Source: Roseburia hominis
GTDB lineage: Bacteria; Bacillota; Clostridia; Lachnospirales; Lachnospiraceae
Length of the DNA stretch: 64,000 nucleotides
Assembly (NCBI GenBank): GCA_021771815.1
Contig: JAETOE010000014.1
Coordinates: 1 to 64,000 of the forward strand
Direction: 5' to 3'
The translations under genes were made by a program, and so were the position numbers. Position 1 is the stretch's first letter; each line of letters begins with the position of its first letter. The notes beneath the pieces were generated by a model. That model was not told where the DNA came from and did no database searches. It worked only from the letters and a program-made list of their open reading frames with translations. This document shows, in pieces, positions 53,191-59,744 of this stretch.

Positions 53191-53219
53191 TTGAAATTCT
53201 ACGGAAAAAAGATTATAAT
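53191..53219 (+). promoter_or_regulatory. Promoter of the zinc-ribbon protein gene
   Basis: TTGAAA (53191-53196), an exact 17-bp spacer and TATAAT (53214-53219). Because this promoter sits at the start of the longest open frame, translation must begin further downstream, most likely at ATG 53314. Confidence 0.75.
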
Positions 53220-53313
53220 GTACGCGAAGGCAATGGGAAACGGCAGGTCTTTAAGCGGGATGCTGCGGACGAATGATAATCGAAAGACAATTGGAAAATA
53301 TGGGGAAATTGCT

Positions 53314-56157
53314 ATGATACAATTACGTGCGAATCAGGAATTGAGACAGACTTTTACAACGCTGATCGAGACGATGAAGGTTCCGGTAAAGTGGAACGGG
53401 ATCTTCGTGGTGATCGATAACTATATTATTTTGCAGGGAGAAGTGCGCTCCCTGTTTTTTCATTTTGACACGAGAAAAGTGGCGACGAACATTATCGACA
53501 TTCCGCTCAAAGAGGACGCGGTCGCGGACACGGCAGGAAATGTGCGGGTGCAGAATGCGATCAATATGATCCTCTACGCGTTTGGAAAATGGGGAACGAT
53601 CAAAGGGCTTAAGGTGGAGAAGAGCCATAAGCAGTTGAACGATCTGTTTGTCGGCGTTATGCGGGAACTCGGCGTGGAACCGGAATATACACAGATGTAC
53701 TTTCGATTTTACCGCCACGGAATGCGCATCACTTACGAGGATGTGATTCAGATGGCGTTAGAATCCGGCGAGGAGAATGAGGAGGAGACGGAAGGGAGTA
53801 CGAGAGGGCTTTGGCGCAAGATCGTATGGAAGAAGGCGCGTGTGAATTTCGCGCATGTTGACACAACGGTCAGGGAGCGAAGGGGCAGCCGTATCGGAAA
53901 CAATTTTTATCTGGTGGGATATCTGTGCCCGTCGTGCGGGGAGAAGCTTCACATGGTCGTCTATCCGATGGGAAAGGAATTCCTCGTTGAGACGGAGGAG
54001 GGAGGCGTTCTTCTGGCGAGAGCGGCGGCGTGCAGCAGATGCCTTCACTTCTATACGCCGCGCCCGCGCAGGCTGTTTGCCGACGGGGATATGTATATGC
54101 TCGATTTTGATGGGGACGAGGCAGCATACGAGGATTATCTGGAACTGCTCGGACGTGACGGCGACCGGGTGTCGAATTACCATACGAATGAGTTTGCGGA
54201 CGGAAGAGCGCCGGAGGATGAGGAGTTGGGGGAAGATCTGGATGAACTTTGCTCCAATCTGCCGGAACTGACCGACCTGGAATTGCGGAAGCTTGAGGCG
54301 CGCATGGAGGAGGGGTTTTACCCGGAGGAGAGTATCGCGAAGTACGAGCCGAGGGTACAGGCGTACAGGAAAGAGCGGACGGCGGACAGAGACGGTGCGC
54401 GTGACGGCGCAGGAAGAGAGAGTGCGCGTGGCGGTGCAGGAAGAGCGGACGGAGAGAGAGAGCAGGCGGCGGATCATGGCGCACAAAAGAAAACGGGGGA
54501 GAGTGGTGCTGCCGGCGAGAGACATGACGGCGGACAGAGGAAAGACAGAGAGAACGATGTTTTTGGCGAGCGGCATGATGGCGGACAGAGGGAAGACGGA
54601 GCGTATCAGTCGCCCGGGAATCGGCAGAAAATCGGGCAGAGTGCCGCAGGAGAGCGGGAGAGAGCCGGGCAGGAAGGTGCGTGGAATCGCCAGAGGGCGG
54701 GTGGAAGCCGCAGCACTGACGATGTTTCACGGAGAACCGGACAGCATGGAGATCACACGGAAGAGACGCTTGTCGTCGAACCGGCGGAAAAGCAGGAGGC
54801 AAGGGAAAAGTACGAGGCGCGCATAAGGCAGCTTGACCGCTATTCCGAGCGTCAGCTAAAGGAATTGAAGCGTCAGCTCGAGGGGGAGAAGAAGCTGACA
54901 TACGAGGAGAAGAAGTCCTATTTAGATCAGATAAAGGAAAAGCTGTCCCGCGATCTGGCGACGCGCCTTAAGGCGAAGGTGGACGCCTGCGAGGGGAAGA
55001 ATTATGCGGTGATGAAGCGCGTGTCTGATGAAGTGAAAGCAGAGGAACTTCCGGCGGAATTAAAGCGCCCGCTCCTCGCACGGCTGCAGGAATGGATGGA
55101 TGCGCAGGCAAAACGCGAGGTGGAGCAGCTTGTCGCAAAGATGCCGCCGAATCTCGACCGCAGACAATACCAGGAGTATCTTGCGAGGTTAAAGGAATAT
55201 GAGGGCGTGGATCTTGGACCCTACGCGGAGAAGCTTGCAGGGGGACGGGAAGCGGCGGAGAAGCAGGAAATTGCGAATTTGATGAAACGGGCGAGAAAAG
55301 TCAGCCGGGAGGATTATAAGGAGCTTGCGAAAAGGCTACAGGAAGGAGATTTTCTGCCGCAGCTTACAGCGCCTTATCTGGAGCGCATCGAAGATAAAAT
55401 TCGTCAGATGGATGCGGATGCGATTGCCGAAATCTGCCCCGCACCTTTGCAGATGTCGTTTGAGGAGGGGATGGAGGCATACCGGAAGCTACAGGAAGGA
55501 GATTTCCTCCCGGAACTTAAGGAGGACGCCGTAAAGGCGCTCACGAAACGGCTTTCGCGGATCAAGGCGGACGAGTGCGAACTTCTGGTTAAAAAGCTCA
55601 AAGGAGAGCTTGCGGAGGCGGGAATCGCGGAGAATCCGCGGCATCATTTTTATCCGGCGAGAAAGGTGCTTATGAATCAGGCGGCGCCGGAGGAGACGGA
55701 GCTGATCGACTTTGCGATGGCGTCGTATGCGGCGGACAGAGGTCTGTTCGAATATCCCATTCTGGTCGTGGATGCGACGAAAAACGGCACCGGAAAAGAG
55801 GGAATGATCCTGACGCCGGATCACCTGTATTACAGTACGGCGTTTTCTGCTTACGGAACGGAGATTGCGTCGATCCGCGGCATTACAGCGTCGACCGGGC
55901 TGTTGAACCGCGGCATCTATGTGCACCCGAAAAACGCTGCGAAGTACAAGGTGCCTTATGCGGTAGAGACGAAGGAACTGACGGCGTATGCGGACGTGCT
56001 GGATGCATTCGTGAAATATCTGATCGAGAAGCCGGATTCCAGGAAGGTGACTTATCTTGCAAGGGAAAAGCACGACACGATCTGCTGTTTTAGGTGCGGG
56101 TATGCCTATAAAGGAGGAACTGTCTGCCCGAAATGCGGATATCAGAACAACGAATAG
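53314..56157 (+). CDS. Large zinc-ribbon protein of unknown function
   Basis: About 947 residues, no signal peptide or membrane helix. An N-terminal domain (IQLRANQELRQTFTTLIETM), a first zinc ribbon (LCPSCGEKL … CSRC, about 207-250), a middle low-complexity linker of about 130 residues rich in Arg, Gly, Glu, Asp and Gln (about 360-490), long helical repeats including two copies of LQEGDFLP, and a C-terminal zinc ribbon CFRCGYAYKGGTVCPKCGY. A beta-rich domain near 820-930 (LILTPDHLYYSTAF-like) may bind a partner. The open frame reaches back to 53191, but that holds the promoter; GGGGA precedes ATG 53314. Not recognised beyond the zinc ribbons. Confidence 0.8.
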   Translation: MIQLRANQELRQTFTTLIETMKVPVKWNGIFVVIDNYIILQGEVRSLFFHFDTRKVATNIIDIPLKEDAVADTAGNVRVQNAINMILYAFGKWGTIKGLKVEKSHKQLNDLFVGVMRELGVEPEYTQMYFRFYRHGMRITYEDVIQMALESGEENEEETEGSTRGLWRKIVWKKARVNFAHVDTTVRERRGSRIGNNFYLVGYLCPSCGEKLHMVVYPMGKEFLVETEEGGVLLARAAACSRCLHFYTPRPRRLFADGDMYMLDFDGDEAAYEDYLELLGRDGDRVSNYHTNEFADGRAPEDEELGEDLDELCSNLPELTDLELRKLEARMEEGFYPEESIAKYEPRVQAYRKERTADRDGARDGAGRESARGGAGRADGEREQAADHGAQKKTGESGAAGERHDGGQRKDRENDVFGERHDGGQREDGAYQSPGNRQKIGQSAAGERERAGQEGAWNRQRAGGSRSTDDVSRRTGQHGDHTEETLVVEPAEKQEAREKYEARIRQLDRYSERQLKELKRQLEGEKKLTYEEKKSYLDQIKEKLSRDLATRLKAKVDACEGKNYAVMKRVSDEVKAEELPAELKRPLLARLQEWMDAQAKREVEQLVAKMPPNLDRRQYQEYLARLKEYEGVDLGPYAEKLAGGREAAEKQEIANLMKRARKVSREDYKELAKRLQEGDFLPQLTAPYLERIEDKIRQMDADAIAEICPAPLQMSFEEGMEAYRKLQEGDFLPELKEDAVKALTKRLSRIKADECELLVKKLKGELAEAGIAENPRHHFYPARKVLMNQAAPEETELIDFAMASYAADRGLFEYPILVVDATKNGTGKEGMILTPDHLYYSTAFSAYGTEIASIRGITASTGLLNRGIYVHPKNAAKYKVPYAVETKELTAYADVLDAFVKYLIEKPDSRKVTYLAREKHDTICCFRCGYAYKGGTVCPKCGYQNNE

Positions 56158-56218: not shown

Positions 56219-57040
56219 ATGCAGAATCATTGCAAAAAAGGGTTATGTATCGCATTTTTATTTTCATTGATGTTCCTGTCGGGATGGCAGGTGGCGAAAA
56301 TGCGGGAGAAACGGACGATCGATACTGCTTCGATTGCAGCGCAGGCGGAGAACTGGGGGCTTGGATTCGGCGCGGAGGGAACCCAGCCGACCGGAAACGC
56401 GACAGCGGAGGAATTAAAGCAGTACGATACATATTTCGTGGGAGATGCGTCGAAGAAAGTGATTTATCTGACGTTTGACTGTGGATATGAGAACGGAAAT
56501 ACCGAGGCAATTTTAGACGCGTTAAAGAAGCACAATGCCCCGGCGACGTTTTTTGTGGTGGGACATTTTCTTGAGAGCGCGCCGGACATTGCAAAAAGGA
56601 TGGTGGCGGAGGGACATACGGTCGGCAATCATACCTATCATCACCCGGATATGTCGTCCATCTCGGATCTGGCTTCGTTTCAGAAGGAGATGGACGATAA
56701 CGCCGCGCTCTTTAAAGAGGCGACGGGGCAGGAGATGACAAAGTACTACAGACCGCCGCAGGGCAAATACAGCACGGAAAACCTTAAGATGGCAAAGGAA
56801 CTCGGCTATCACACCTTTTTCTGGAGCCTCGCTTATGTGGACTGGAACGTGGATGCACAGCCGACGAAGGAGGAAGCGTTCGATAAGCTGCTCGGGCGCA
56901 TCCACCCGGGGGCGATCGTATTGCTGCACAGCACATCGAAGACAAACGGAGAAATCTTAGATGAACTGCTGACAAAGTGGGAGGAGATGGGGTACACGTT
57001 TGCGCCGCTGTCGGATTTCTGTGAAAAACAGGAGGCGTAA
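56219..57040 (+). CDS. pdaA: Polysaccharide deacetylase, PdaA type
   Basis: A 273-residue NodB-fold deacetylase with an N-terminal membrane anchor or signal (about 9-25). Catalytic residues are in LTFDCGYENGN (Asp) and GNHTYHHPDMS (metal His pair), with YYRPPQGKYS following. The pattern matches PdaA, which makes muramic delta-lactam in the spore cortex, implying a sporulating host. Ribosome site is weak. It may depend on a sporulation sigma factor; I did not identify the promoter. Confidence 0.88.
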   Translation: MQNHCKKGLCIAFLFSLMFLSGWQVAKMREKRTIDTASIAAQAENWGLGFGAEGTQPTGNATAEELKQYDTYFVGDASKKVIYLTFDCGYENGNTEAILDALKKHNAPATFFVVGHFLESAPDIAKRMVAEGHTVGNHTYHHPDMSSISDLASFQKEMDDNAALFKEATGQEMTKYYRPPQGKYSTENLKMAKELGYHTFFWSLAYVDWNVDAQPTKEEAFDKLLGRIHPGAIVLLHSTSKTNGEILDELLTKWEEMGYTFAPLSDFCEKQEA

Positions 57041-57048
57041 GGTCAGTG

Positions 57049-58452
57049 TCAGTGCCCTAAGATTTTCTGCGTATTTTCTTTGATTTTTTCGGAAAGTCTC
57101 GCGTACTGGACCAAATCTTCCTCGGAAAAACCGTCAAAGCGCGCCGCGTCGAAATCGTTCTGGGCGGTGGCAAGATCCGGCAGGATGGCGTCGGCGGCGG
57201 GCAGCAGTTCGACTTTTAAATATTTCTTTGTCAACCTGCGGGAAGGTTTTTCGAAAGCCCTTCCGCTGTCGTTTCTGGAAGCTTTGGCGGTCTGCTTTTC
57301 GGCGGAGGTTCGGGCTACCTTTTCGCGGACATCTGTTACCTTGACAAGATCCTTCGCGGAAAGCCGCTGCAGTGTCCTTGAGAGCGTATTCTTAGACATA
57401 CCAGCGAAATCCGCAAGCTCTTTTAAACTGGCAAAGGTGTGCGCCTGGCTTAAGCAGAGCAGCAGGGAGATGTCATGGAGCGATAAGCCGTTGCGGAGTG
57501 CGACGACTTCAAGATAGTGCTCCAAAAGCTTTCTGCTGCGGTAAGTCTCCGATACGATGCCTTCGCCGGAAATCGCTTCGGAATAGACGTTTGTGCGTTC
57601 ATTGCCGAGCTTTGAAACGCCGGGCAGCAGCGCCGGGGGGACGCTTCCGTCCCCTGCGGCGTCGATGAGAAAGCGGTAGACCATAAGGCGCTTCTTTTCA
57701 TAATCTTTTTCGTCGTAGACATTCTTGTAAAATTCATTGTAATACTCAAAGACCATGAGCTTCATCCGTACCGTGTTGCTGATACTGACGCCCTGACTTG
57801 CGAGCGAACCTTTTGTCTTGACATAGTAGTAGATGGGAGCCTGCAGTGCATAGAACACCTGCGCGTGTATGATGTATTCCAGATTGAAAAGGAAATCCTC
57901 GCACCAGTTGATGGAACTGTCCATGCGCAGCTTGTACTTTTCGACGATATCCCTGCGGTAAAGCTTGTTCCAGAGAACGCCGTAATAGAAATCGGCGGGA
58001 TTTTCCATCATGTGTTCCGAAAATTCCTCGCGCGTCAGCACGCCGTCCTCCTCGATATCTCCCTTGTGGGAGACGCGCTCTCCGACGACACGGTAAAAGT
58101 CGGCGATGACCATATCGCAGTTGTGTTCCGTGGCAGCGCGGACTAATAGCCTGGTAGCGTCCGGCGTGATCCAGTCGTCGCTGTCAAGAAACTGCAGATA
58201 CGTTCCCTGCGCCTGGTCGAGCGCGAGATTGCGCGTGTCGGACACGCCGGTATTTTCCTTATGGATGACATGTATGCGGGAATCCGAGGCGGCGTATTCG
58301 TCACAGATTGCGCCGGAAGAATCGGTGCTCCCGTCGTTTACAAGAAAGAGTTCGAAATCTTTATATTCCTGACGCACGATACTGTCCACACAGCGTCGGA
58401 GATATTTTTCCGCGTTATAGACCGGAACGATAATGCTTACCATTGGTTTCAT
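57049..58452 (-). CDS. Glycosyltransferase family 2 fused to a MarR-type DNA-binding domain
   Basis: A 467-residue fusion. Residues 1 to about 225 are a GT2 domain: VSIIVPVYNAEKYLRRCVDSI, FLVNDGSTDSSG, and DSDDWI (nucleotide-sugar and metal site). A helical linker follows. From about 308 to the end is a MarR-like winged helix: GLSLHDISLLLCLSQ, ASLKELADFAGMSKNTLSRTL (recognition HTH), a wing extended by a basic insert, then LTKKYLKVELLPAADAI and GFSEEDLVQYARLSEKIKEN, as in MarR C-terminal helices. The start at 58452 has GGAGG 7 bases upstream; the longer frame places that site inside codons. No membrane segment. It is divergent from the GNAT-kinase gene, with a tandem repeat between the two promoters. 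Confidence 0.85.
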   Translation of the reverse strand: MKPMVSIIVPVYNAEKYLRRCVDSIVRQEYKDFELFLVNDGSTDSSGAICDEYAASDSRIHVIHKENTGVSDTRNLALDQAQGTYLQFLDSDDWITPDATRLLVRAATEHNCDMVIADFYRVVGERVSHKGDIEEDGVLTREEFSEHMMENPADFYYGVLWNKLYRRDIVEKYKLRMDSSINWCEDFLFNLEYIIHAQVFYALQAPIYYYVKTKGSLASQGVSISNTVRMKLMVFEYYNEFYKNVYDEKDYEKKRLMVYRFLIDAAGDGSVPPALLPGVSKLGNERTNVYSEAISGEGIVSETYRSRKLLEHYLEVVALRNGLSLHDISLLLCLSQAHTFASLKELADFAGMSKNTLSRTLQRLSAKDLVKVTDVREKVARTSAEKQTAKASRNDSGRAFEKPSRRLTKKYLKVELLPAADAILPDLATAQNDFDAARFDGFSEEDLVQYARLSEKIKENTQKILGH

Positions 58453-58485
58453 AAAAAGAACCTCCATAAAATGAATCTTCTTTTT

Positions 58486-58514
58486 ATCATAGCGTGGCTT
58501 TGAAAATTTTGCAA
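58486..58514 (-). promoter_or_regulatory. Promoter of the GT2-MarR gene
   Basis: On the minus strand TTGCAA (58514-58509), a 17-bp spacer and TATGAT (58491-58486). Confidence 0.6.
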
Positions 58515-58520
58515 TGAAAA

Positions 58521-58558
58521 GATTGCCCTTGTACGGGAAGATTGTCCTTGTACGGGAA
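58521..58558. repeat. Tandem 19-bp repeat between divergent promoters
   Basis: GATTGYCCTTGTACGGGAA occurs twice in direct succession (58521-58539 and 58540-58558) with one mismatch. Each copy includes the near-palindrome CCCTTGTACGGG. The second copy contains the -35 box of the rightward promoter and the first lies 6 bp from the -35 of the leftward promoter. It is a likely operator that controls both genes. Confidence 0.8.
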
Positions 58559-58576
58559 GGGTGGAAATGCTATTAT
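58548..58576 (+). promoter_or_regulatory. Promoter of the GNAT-kinase gene
   Basis: TTGTAC (58548-58553), a 17-bp spacer and TATTAT (58571-58576). It lies 91 bp before the start codon and overlaps the tandem repeat. Confidence 0.65.
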
Positions 58577-58667
58577 AGGAAAAAGTATCAGAGAGCAGAC
58601 AGAAGCTAAGAACAAAACGGGCAGATATTTAATATGCAGTCAAAAAGATACGGATGGAGGAGAGGTT

Positions 58668-59744
58668 ATGAGACAGATTGAGACGGAGAGATTGATTTTA
58701 AGACCGTGGAAATGGGAGGATGCGGAGGATATGTATGCATACGCATCCTCGCCAAATGTAGGACCGAGAGCGGGATGGAAACCGCACGAGAGCATTGAGG
58801 AAACCAGACAGATCATGAAGGAAATGTTTGTGGGAGCGGATGACGTGTGGGCGCTTGAATTAAAGGAAAATCACAAAGTGATAGGCTCTTTGGGGCTGCA
58901 TGAGACCAGCAGGGGAGGTCTTGTTTACGACAGGGAAATGGGCTACGTGCTTTCGGAGGAATACTGGGGACGGGGGCTTATGCCGGAAGCGGCTGCGCGC
59001 GCGGTACAGTTCGCATTTGAGGAACTCGGCGTTGAAATACTGATGGTAGCGCATTTTGATTTCAACATGCGCTCCAGGCGCGTGATAGAAAAGCTTGGGT
59101 TTTCGTGGCTGACGCATTTGGAAAAGAGCTGGAGGCGCTATGACGGTGCGGAATTAAACGATGAGGTCTACGGTATGACCAGGGCGCAGTACCGGAAGGA
59201 AAGTCCTGACATTTTGACGGTGCAGGATGTGGATTACCGTATCGTCAGGCTGCTTGGAAAGGGAAAAGGGGGATATTCCTACCTTGCATGGGATGGCAGG
59301 AAGCGGTATGTGGTAAAGCAGATTCACCATGAGCCATGCGACTATTATACGTTTGGGGATAAGATGGAAGCGGAGCAGCGGGACTATAAAAAACTGCTGG
59401 AAACCGGTATTGCGCTGCCAAGGCTGCTCGCAGTAGATACGGATAAGGAATGTATTCTAAAGGAGTATATCAAGGGAGATACGATTTACGATCTGGTTTA
59501 TCGGGATGAGATGAAAGCGGAATATATAGAGCAGGTGAAGCGGATGTGCGCGCTGTGTTACAGGGCAAATATCAATATCGACTATTTCCCCACAAATTTT
59601 GTGGTACAGGATGGAGTTCTTTACTATATTGACTACGAATGCAATGAATATATGGAAGAGTGGAACTTTGAAAACTGGGGTGTGAAGTATTGGTCAAAGA
59701 CGCCGGAATTTCTGGCGTATGTAGAGGAACACGGAGGAAACTAG
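58668..59744 (+). CDS. GNAT acetyltransferase fused to a kinase-like domain
   Basis: A 358-residue fusion. Residues 1 to about 180 are a RimJ/RimL-type acetyltransferase (TERLILRPWKWEDAEDMYAY, GYVLSEEYWGRGLMPEAA for acetyl-CoA, RSRRVIEKLGF). From about 185 follows a small protein-kinase-like fold: LLGKGKGGYSYLAW (glycine loop), RYVVKQIH (Lys), ECILKEYIKGDTIYDLV (hinge), NIDYFPTNFVV (catalytic loop, with Asp-Tyr-Phe in place of HGDLHPxN) and YYIDYECNEY (DFG region as DYE). GGAGGAG precedes ATG 58668. It may modify a small molecule, such as an aminoglycoside-like compound, or a protein; not determined. Confidence 0.82.
   Translation: MRQIETERLILRPWKWEDAEDMYAYASSPNVGPRAGWKPHESIEETRQIMKEMFVGADDVWALELKENHKVIGSLGLHETSRGGLVYDREMGYVLSEEYWGRGLMPEAAARAVQFAFEELGVEILMVAHFDFNMRSRRVIEKLGFSWLTHLEKSWRRYDGAELNDEVYGMTRAQYRKESPDILTVQDVDYRIVRLLGKGKGGYSYLAWDGRKRYVVKQIHHEPCDYYTFGDKMEAEQRDYKKLLETGIALPRLLAVDTDKECILKEYIKGDTIYDLVYRDEMKAEYIEQVKRMCALCYRANINIDYFPTNFVVQDGVLYYIDYECNEYMEEWNFENWGVKYWSKTPEFLAYVEEHGGN

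Follow-up and report, generated by a model that had tools for sequence, protein, structure and literature searches.

The gene and its two halves

The window, i.e., the whole 64,000-nucleotide stretch of Roseburia hominis DNA analysed here, carries a single uninterrupted gene at positions 57049-58452 of the minus strand. The minus-strand frame is open throughout, and the plus-strand reading of the same interval contains many stops. Two starts were considered, as the longest ORF begins at 58467 (472 aa) and the ATG at 58452 gives a protein of 467 aa; the latter appeared to be likelier, because a GGAGG sits 8 nt before it. Residue numbers below are those of the 472-aa ORF, from which 5 should be subtracted for the 467-aa protein. 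The features of the gene and of the region upstream of it are listed below.

57049..58452, minus strand: gene of the GT2-MarR fusion; 467 aa from ATG 58452, the likelier start; 472 aa from the longest ORF, to 58467
57640..58449, minus strand: GT2 catalytic domain, residues 7-276
58321..58335, minus strand: DGSTD motif, residues 45-49; G46, S47 and D49 invariant, D45 in at least 90% (45 fusions)
58174..58185, minus strand: DSDD motif, residues 95-98; D95, D97 and D98 invariant (45 fusions)
57895..57900, minus strand: ED in WCEDFLFN, residues 190-191; W188, C189, E190 and D191 invariant (45 fusions)
57595..57612, minus strand: conserved K/R-L-G-x-E-R segment in the linker, residues 286-291
57052..57558, minus strand: MarR domain, residues 304-472, with a1 304-325, a2 330-339, a3 348-355, a4 359-371, b2 375-383, the wing, b3 413-421, a5 429-443 and a6 449-471
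57349..57396, minus strand: recognition helix, N-cap included, residues 358-373
57217..57330, minus strand: wing, residues 380-417, including an insert rich in lysine and arginine; net charge +8 here
58461..58465, minus strand: GGAGG ribosome-binding site, 8 nt 5' of ATG 58452, found by eye
58486..58514, minus strand: promoter-like TTGCAA-17-TATGAT, weak, preceding the GT2-MarR gene
58521..58558, plus strand: two tandem 19-bp copies of GATTGYCCTTGTACGGGAA, intergenic, upstream of the gene; candidate operator

The GT2-MarR protein is the only one of its kind in its own genome, where the next match is 33% identical and covers the GT2 part only. Its neighbours lie on the plus strand. The gene at 56219-57040, convergent with the GT2-MarR gene, encodes a polysaccharide deacetylase near the sporulation protein PdaA (TIGR02884, score 292.6 bits, cut-off 298), and the divergent gene at 58542-59744 joins in one frame a GNAT acetyltransferase and a Bud32/ABC1-like kinase domain (residues 254-373; TIGR03724, E 1.5e-8, far below cut-off). 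Further away, 53191-56157 encodes a protein of 988 aa with a charged, repetitive middle and, by eye, CxxC pairs near its C-terminus; relatives of this protein were found near two close orthologues of the GT2-MarR gene (L124 and L125).

The N-terminal half matched PF00535 (E 3.5e-40, residues 11-178) and has the GT-A fold with the DxD and nucleotide-sugar motifs of the GT2 family. Its catalytic residues are invariant in all 45 aligned fusions; we take DGSTD to be the nucleotide-sugar site, DSDD the metal-binding DxD and ED (190-191) the putative catalytic base. Among solved structures, 5hea and 3bcv were closest by sequence, and TarS, TarP and RmlT were also near by fold, while the 50 matches listed by Foldseek for the full-length model were all glycosyltransferases. 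The GT2 half has thus kept the active-site residues of a glycosyltransferase and is presumably active.

The identity of the C-terminal half is less apparent from the single sequence, as Pfam gave 25.5 bits for MarR_2 (cut-off 27) and 23.5 bits for MarR (cut-off 24.6), and MarR_2 was matched by only 31 of 45 fusions when each was searched singly; a genome-wide scan, on the other hand, scored the MarR domain above cut-off (29.1). With a profile built from 12 relatives, E values of 0.01 or better were obtained for 80 distinct PDB sequences, and the majority of the 60 listed are regulators of the MarR type. The highest-ranking match was the solved MarR protein 3bpv (E 2.6e-11), covering positions 32-140 of 143 and therefore reaching through the C-terminal dimer helices. 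The MarR-domain profile also matched the riboflavin kinase chain 3cta (E 7.9e-5), presumably TA1064, the homologue by which the archaeal protein RbkR is listed as a regulator and enzyme. AlphaFold2 models of the full protein (mean pLDDT 79.4) and of the last 177 residues (mean pLDDT 80.5) both place helices and strands in the MarR order, that is, an a1-a2-b1-a3-a4-b2-wing-b3-a5-a6 fold with dimer helices. When the C-terminal model was searched with Foldseek, the best 50 of 1269 matches were all transcriptional regulators, headed by SlyA 3qpt at 1.4e-5; the titles of these 50 name mostly MarR, SlyA, RovA and HcaR, and those of 2fbh, 2fbi, 2nnn and BpsR name no family. The preliminary description of this DNA had proposed a GT2 domain followed in one frame by a complete MarR domain, and had suggested comparing a predicted structure of the C-terminal part with MarR structures; the PF00535 match, the profile match to 3bpv and the winged helix of MarR topology found with AlphaFold2 and Foldseek bear this architecture out.

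The linker between the two halves (residues 272-303) was predicted to be disordered by AlphaFold2, though it contains a conserved segment, in which K/R286 and E290 are present in 55/55 fusions, L287 in 54, G288 in 53 and K/R291 in 49. We considered K-L-x-x-E as a motif common to all forms of this GT2 and rejected it, since it occurs in 54/55 MarR fusions but in 6/9, 2/2 and 5/18 of the other types, where some occurrences are chance matches.

From the sequence, the joining of a complete GT2 and a likely DNA-binding domain in one chain can be regarded as a sound conclusion. The preliminary description had interpreted this chain as a trigger enzyme, one that signals the state of its nucleotide sugar or acceptor to a promoter. 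We retain a trigger enzyme as the likeliest reading, with a probability of about 0.47, and weigh it below against four others.

Recurrence and ancestry of the fusion

Full-length relatives were detected in 8 of the 62 genomes of the genus, the window's own included. A family-wide sample of 397 genomes yielded 57 matches at E <=1e-55, and 41 of these carry a MarR tail, a count that rests on tail alignment. Across the order, 15 of 392 sampled genomes matched at 1e-60, among them one of another family with a MarR tail (G484) and one of a third family with the GT2 alone (G733). Short peptide patterns searched against 84,980 species genomes gave 33 loci. All of these searches except the order-wide one contributed to an alignment of 55 distinct fusion proteins, with start codons of the relatives set by rule; same-record duplicates (L016, L060, L096 and others), L017 (a near copy of L018), L072 (cut by a contig end), L059, L070 and L094 were left out, as were L152-L155, which were found later.

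The fusion also occurs in the one-contig genomes G003, G246 and G436 and in AP018536.1, which is titled a complete genome. A sequencing or assembly artefact that joined two genes would have refuted the fusion, as the preliminary description pointed out, and a join error or frameshift can be rejected because the same arrangement recurs in 55 distinct proteins, these one-contig genomes included; we regard the probability of an artefact as negligible. The domain-architecture search proposed in that description thus yielded 55 distinct fusions plus one more in another family of the order, and the fusion is real and widespread in its family, the Lachnospiraceae.

A tree of the GT2 part was inferred from 86 family rows and 5 outgroup rows by a quick method with SH-aLRT as the only support measure. 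The 28 rows lacking MarR formed one group with an SH-aLRT of 100, and the 55 fusions together with three degenerate members fell on the other side; the outgroup branches of this tree are long, and 25 of its 88 inner branches lack resolution. The MarR-less group comprises 17 rows labelled as GT2 alone, 9 with a deoxyinosine glycosylase and 2 with another tail; L122 is labelled 'GT only' in the tree, though its tail looks like a helix-turn-helix by eye. The MarR label needs 5 changes on this tree, of which at least two are forced by starred branches, and a single origin of the fusion is not proven because the MarR side of the tree is poorly resolved. A gain of MarR on the fusion side and a loss on the opposite side are both compatible with the tree.

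Three kinds of degeneration were noticed on the MarR side. In the close relative L059/L128, the GT2 is 80% identical and the protein ends soon after residue 276 without a MarR domain; a search of the 1.8 kb that follow the L128 stop codon gave no MarR remnant at E 0.01. The core of the helix-turn-helix is missing from L094, and in L070 the frame is broken downstream of the wing. The tree and these degenerate members indicate that the fusion is old and is inherited together with the gene, and that the GT2 has sometimes outlasted it. The clean loss of MarR in L059/L128 and the loss of the core in L094 are what one would expect under the main rival to the trigger-enzyme reading, in which the MarR domain has given up transcriptional control and either serves the GT2 for dimerisation or as a scaffold, or persists as a passenger of an old fusion. 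We consider this rival unlikely, albeit the most serious of the alternatives, and return to it with the DNA-binding elements.

The same GT2 carries unrelated tails elsewhere. In L082, L085, L086, L083, L078, L084 and L088 and, by eye, in L109 and L110, a member of the same GT2 subfamily has a DNA-deoxyinosine glycosylase attached. TIGR04274 was found in 7/7 of the scanned GT2-glycosylase fusions (best E 1.3e-40), and 4/7 of them contain a YbaK Cys-tRNA(Pro) deacylase as well, making a three-enzyme chain; in the window's own genome, the deoxyinosine glycosylase is a separate gene. A different short C-terminal tail with a weak helix-turn-helix look was found on the same GT2 in L116, L117 and L122 (HTH_23 at 0.0078 in L116, GerE at 0.011 in L117, no family match for the tail of L122). 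The GT2 C-terminus thus accepts unrelated tails, the glycosylase and YbaK among them, which agrees with a passenger role for MarR and makes any inference from fusion to function weaker.

The two commonest tails seen, MarR and DNA-deoxyinosine glycosylase, are both DNA-acting types, which gave rise to the idea that the GT2 works at DNA. A third reading accordingly holds that the substrate of the GT2 is DNA, a nucleotide or a nucleoid protein, to which the fused tails bring the enzyme. Against it, the nearest solved relatives serve the glycosylation of wall teichoic acid, polysaccharide or protein; YbaK and tails of poor definition occur too, and when the neighbours of the GT2-alone forms were clustered, no cluster was widely recurrent. 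We therefore hold this reading to be very improbable. As a speculation hardly any stronger, one GT2 lineage might have gained domains of DNA-acting type on two or more occasions because DNA is its place of work, where it could serve as a nucleoid-bound sugar sensor or glycosylate DNA, a nucleotide or a DNA-bound protein.

Putative DNA-binding elements and the upstream region

The recognition helix is net positive in 52 of the 55 fusions, with a mean charge of +3.1. In 20 stand-alone MarR proteins of the same genus, which were found with the same profile and hand-picked from the upper part of the list, one per genome, it is positive in 19 (mean +2.0). Helices a2, a3, a5 and a6 of the fusions are negative on average, and a1 averages +1.1. 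Acidic residues are few in the recognition helix (mean 0.62 per 16 residues), and K/R occupies positions 368 and 372 in 85% and 84% of the fusions, respectively. The fusions thus share the basic recognition helix of the MarR family, which argues that the putative DNA-reading helix is still shaped for DNA, and DNA binding by the MarR half is likely. A scaffold or passenger domain would give no reason for a net basic, acid-poor helix in 52/55 fusions, nor for the lysine or arginine at 368 and 372.

The wing departs from the family. Its length ranges from 1 to 46 residues among the 55 fusions against 8 residues in 20/20 stand-alone MarRs, and a D(x)R anywhere in the wing region was found in 16/55 fusions against 16/20 stand-alone MarRs, so that the canonical short wing with D(x)R is not a property of the fusions. 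The basic insert of about 30 residues highlighted in the preliminary description is indeed present in this protein. As a functional hallmark it was discarded, because wing length varies this widely and the insert, one of several lineage-specific expansions, does not define the fusions. A largely lost wing signature and a free wing length are both compatible with the scaffold or passenger reading.

The same reading draws on the pace of change, as the MarR half evolves faster than the GT2 half (mean pairwise identity of 31% versus about 62% in the 55 fusions). For the MarR half, dN/dS could be computed for 13 of 30 listed pairs and ranged over 0.05-0.34, a rough estimate because dS (0.9-3.0, mostly >1) is near saturation. 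Both halves are apparently under purifying selection.

A further alternative reverses the direction of coupling: the MarR half would bind a small ligand or DNA and thereby set the activity of the GT2, so that the output is glycosylation and not transcription. MarR proteins are often ligand-binding switches, and the complete MarR fold predicted here would suit such a role. Helices a1, a2 and a5 are variable over much of their length in the 55 fusions, which speaks against it, and we judge reverse coupling to be improbable. A separately translated MarR domain finds no conserved start, as SD-like sites before in-frame internal starts were seen in 9 of the 55 fusions.

MarR family regulators bind palindromic operators, often at their own promoters. 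The tandem 19-bp repeat at 58521-58558 lies just upstream of the weak promoter-like site, in the region common with the divergent GNAT gene, and is real, with two matches where 0.04 are expected. The promoter-like sites themselves are weak evidence, as the interval 57000-58700 contains 2 and shuffled sequence on average 1.2. Within its own genome, the 14-base core of the repeat occurs at this locus only, and the repeat was not seen by eye upstream of 14 relatives; the repeat, which the preliminary description had put forward for a DNA-binding test, hence finds no support as an operator.

Upstream of 54 fusions (the sequence of one of the 55 being too short), dyads with exact arms in total exceeded those in shuffled sequences (60 at arm 6 versus a mean of 39 and a maximum of 50). 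No single exact-arm dyad recurred above the shuffles in these 54 sequences, and therefore no operator was called. The failure of the operator search to find one counts in favour of the scaffold or passenger reading. In 17 of the 55 cases, a long open frame of the same direction overlaps the gene or ends <50 bp before it, which makes control of an own promoter unlikely as a general rule.

Likewise, no widely conserved neighbour was found and conservation stops at near relatives, the largest clusters comprising 6/34 loci and 8/54 loci, where many of the 54 are represented by 1.5-kb flanks only. The cluster of 8/54 consists, by eye, of ABC-ATPases, a large common family. A pdaA-like deacetylase occurs near 4/54 loci, the window included, and represents local synteny.

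A possible trigger enzyme and its known counterparts

The trigger-enzyme proposal can now be divided into its parts. A complete GT2 with invariant catalytic residues, a complete MarR domain and a recognition helix that is basic in 52/55 fusions stand. That the enzyme reports sugar or acceptor state to a promoter is conjectural: no exact-arm dyad upstream is common to the fusions, the repeat core is confined to this locus in its own genome, no neighbour is widely conserved and the wing insert does not define the fusions. In arriving at our estimate, we counted for the trigger enzyme the MarR topology in both models, the Foldseek matches of the C-terminal model, the profile matches to 3bpv and 3cta, the invariant GT2 motifs, the split with an SH-aLRT of 100, the basic helix and the low, if rough, dN/dS of the MarR half. 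Counted against it were the lack of a recurring exact-arm dyad and of a widely conserved neighbour, the 17 genes close behind or overlapping a co-directional frame, the D(x)R in 16/55 fusions, the fast-changing MarR half, the absence of MarR in L059/L128, the states of L094 and L070, and the single-sequence MarR_2 matches in only 31/45 fusions. The structure of the protein and the recurrence of the fusion are firm, and the regulatory output is inferred.

A trigger enzyme of this kind would most likely operate as follows. Helices a1, a5 and a6 of the MarR half would form a dimer that carries two GT2 arms. With arms free of donor sugar or acceptor, the dimer would sit on DNA and repress the genes of its own pathway. 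Once substrates load the arms, or a membrane-bound acceptor draws the enzyme away, the dimer would leave the DNA. PutA leaves DNA in a similar way. The dimerisation and the coupling between the halves, like sugar transfer and DNA binding, are postulated here.

If the coupling is genuine, a single protein would tie the synthesis of glycans or glycoconjugates to gene expression in Lachnospiraceae, the Roseburia-like ones and others. The fused relatives and the GT2-alone L128 constitute a natural experiment that bears on the contribution of the regulator half. The fusion also illustrates a possible route by which an enzyme turns into a one-component regulator through gene fusion.

The preliminary description knew of no described GT2-MarR regulator, and our search of the open-access literature, in which none was found, agrees. 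Several known systems invite comparison. GmaR of Listeria is described as a glycosyltransferase and an antirepressor of MogR that controls transcription (PMC9638930). Like the fusion, it joins in one chain an N-terminal glycosyltransferase and a C-terminal part that controls transcription, and this C-terminal part binds the repressor without the glycosyltransferase domain (PMC9638930). The GmaR chain 22ao also matches the GT2 part of the protein studied here (E 3.4e-6). The means of control differ, as TPR, linker and antirepressor domains of GmaR bind MogR (PMC9638930), whereas the C-terminus here is a MarR domain, and the fusion does not belong to the GmaR-type antirepressors. EpsE of Bacillus subtilis is likewise a bifunctional glycosyltransferase, but its separable second function is that of a flagellar clutch and not DNA binding (PMC3000366).

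On the regulator side, the fusion resembles the MarR family (SlyA, MTH313 3bpv and RovA) in its complete fold with dimerisation helices, and differs from it in the attached enzyme, the free wing length and the D(x)R that is mostly absent. PutA and BirA use other enzymes and other DNA-binding folds than the fusion, and their own operators and signals are known. In each of the two, one protein acts as an enzyme and a transcriptional repressor (PMC6978683). RbkR, an archaeal riboflavin kinase with a helix-turn-helix, is listed as a gene regulator and enzyme, and an enzyme-only homologue without the helix-turn-helix exists (PMC8305020). It shares with the fusion the combination of a metabolic enzyme and a helix-turn-helix in one chain (PMC8305020), and is unlike it in having a different enzyme, an N-terminal helix-turn-helix and an archaeal origin. 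By analogy with these systems, the GT2-MarR protein is best read as a probable trigger enzyme that follows the plan of RbkR or PutA with a GT2 as its enzyme part.
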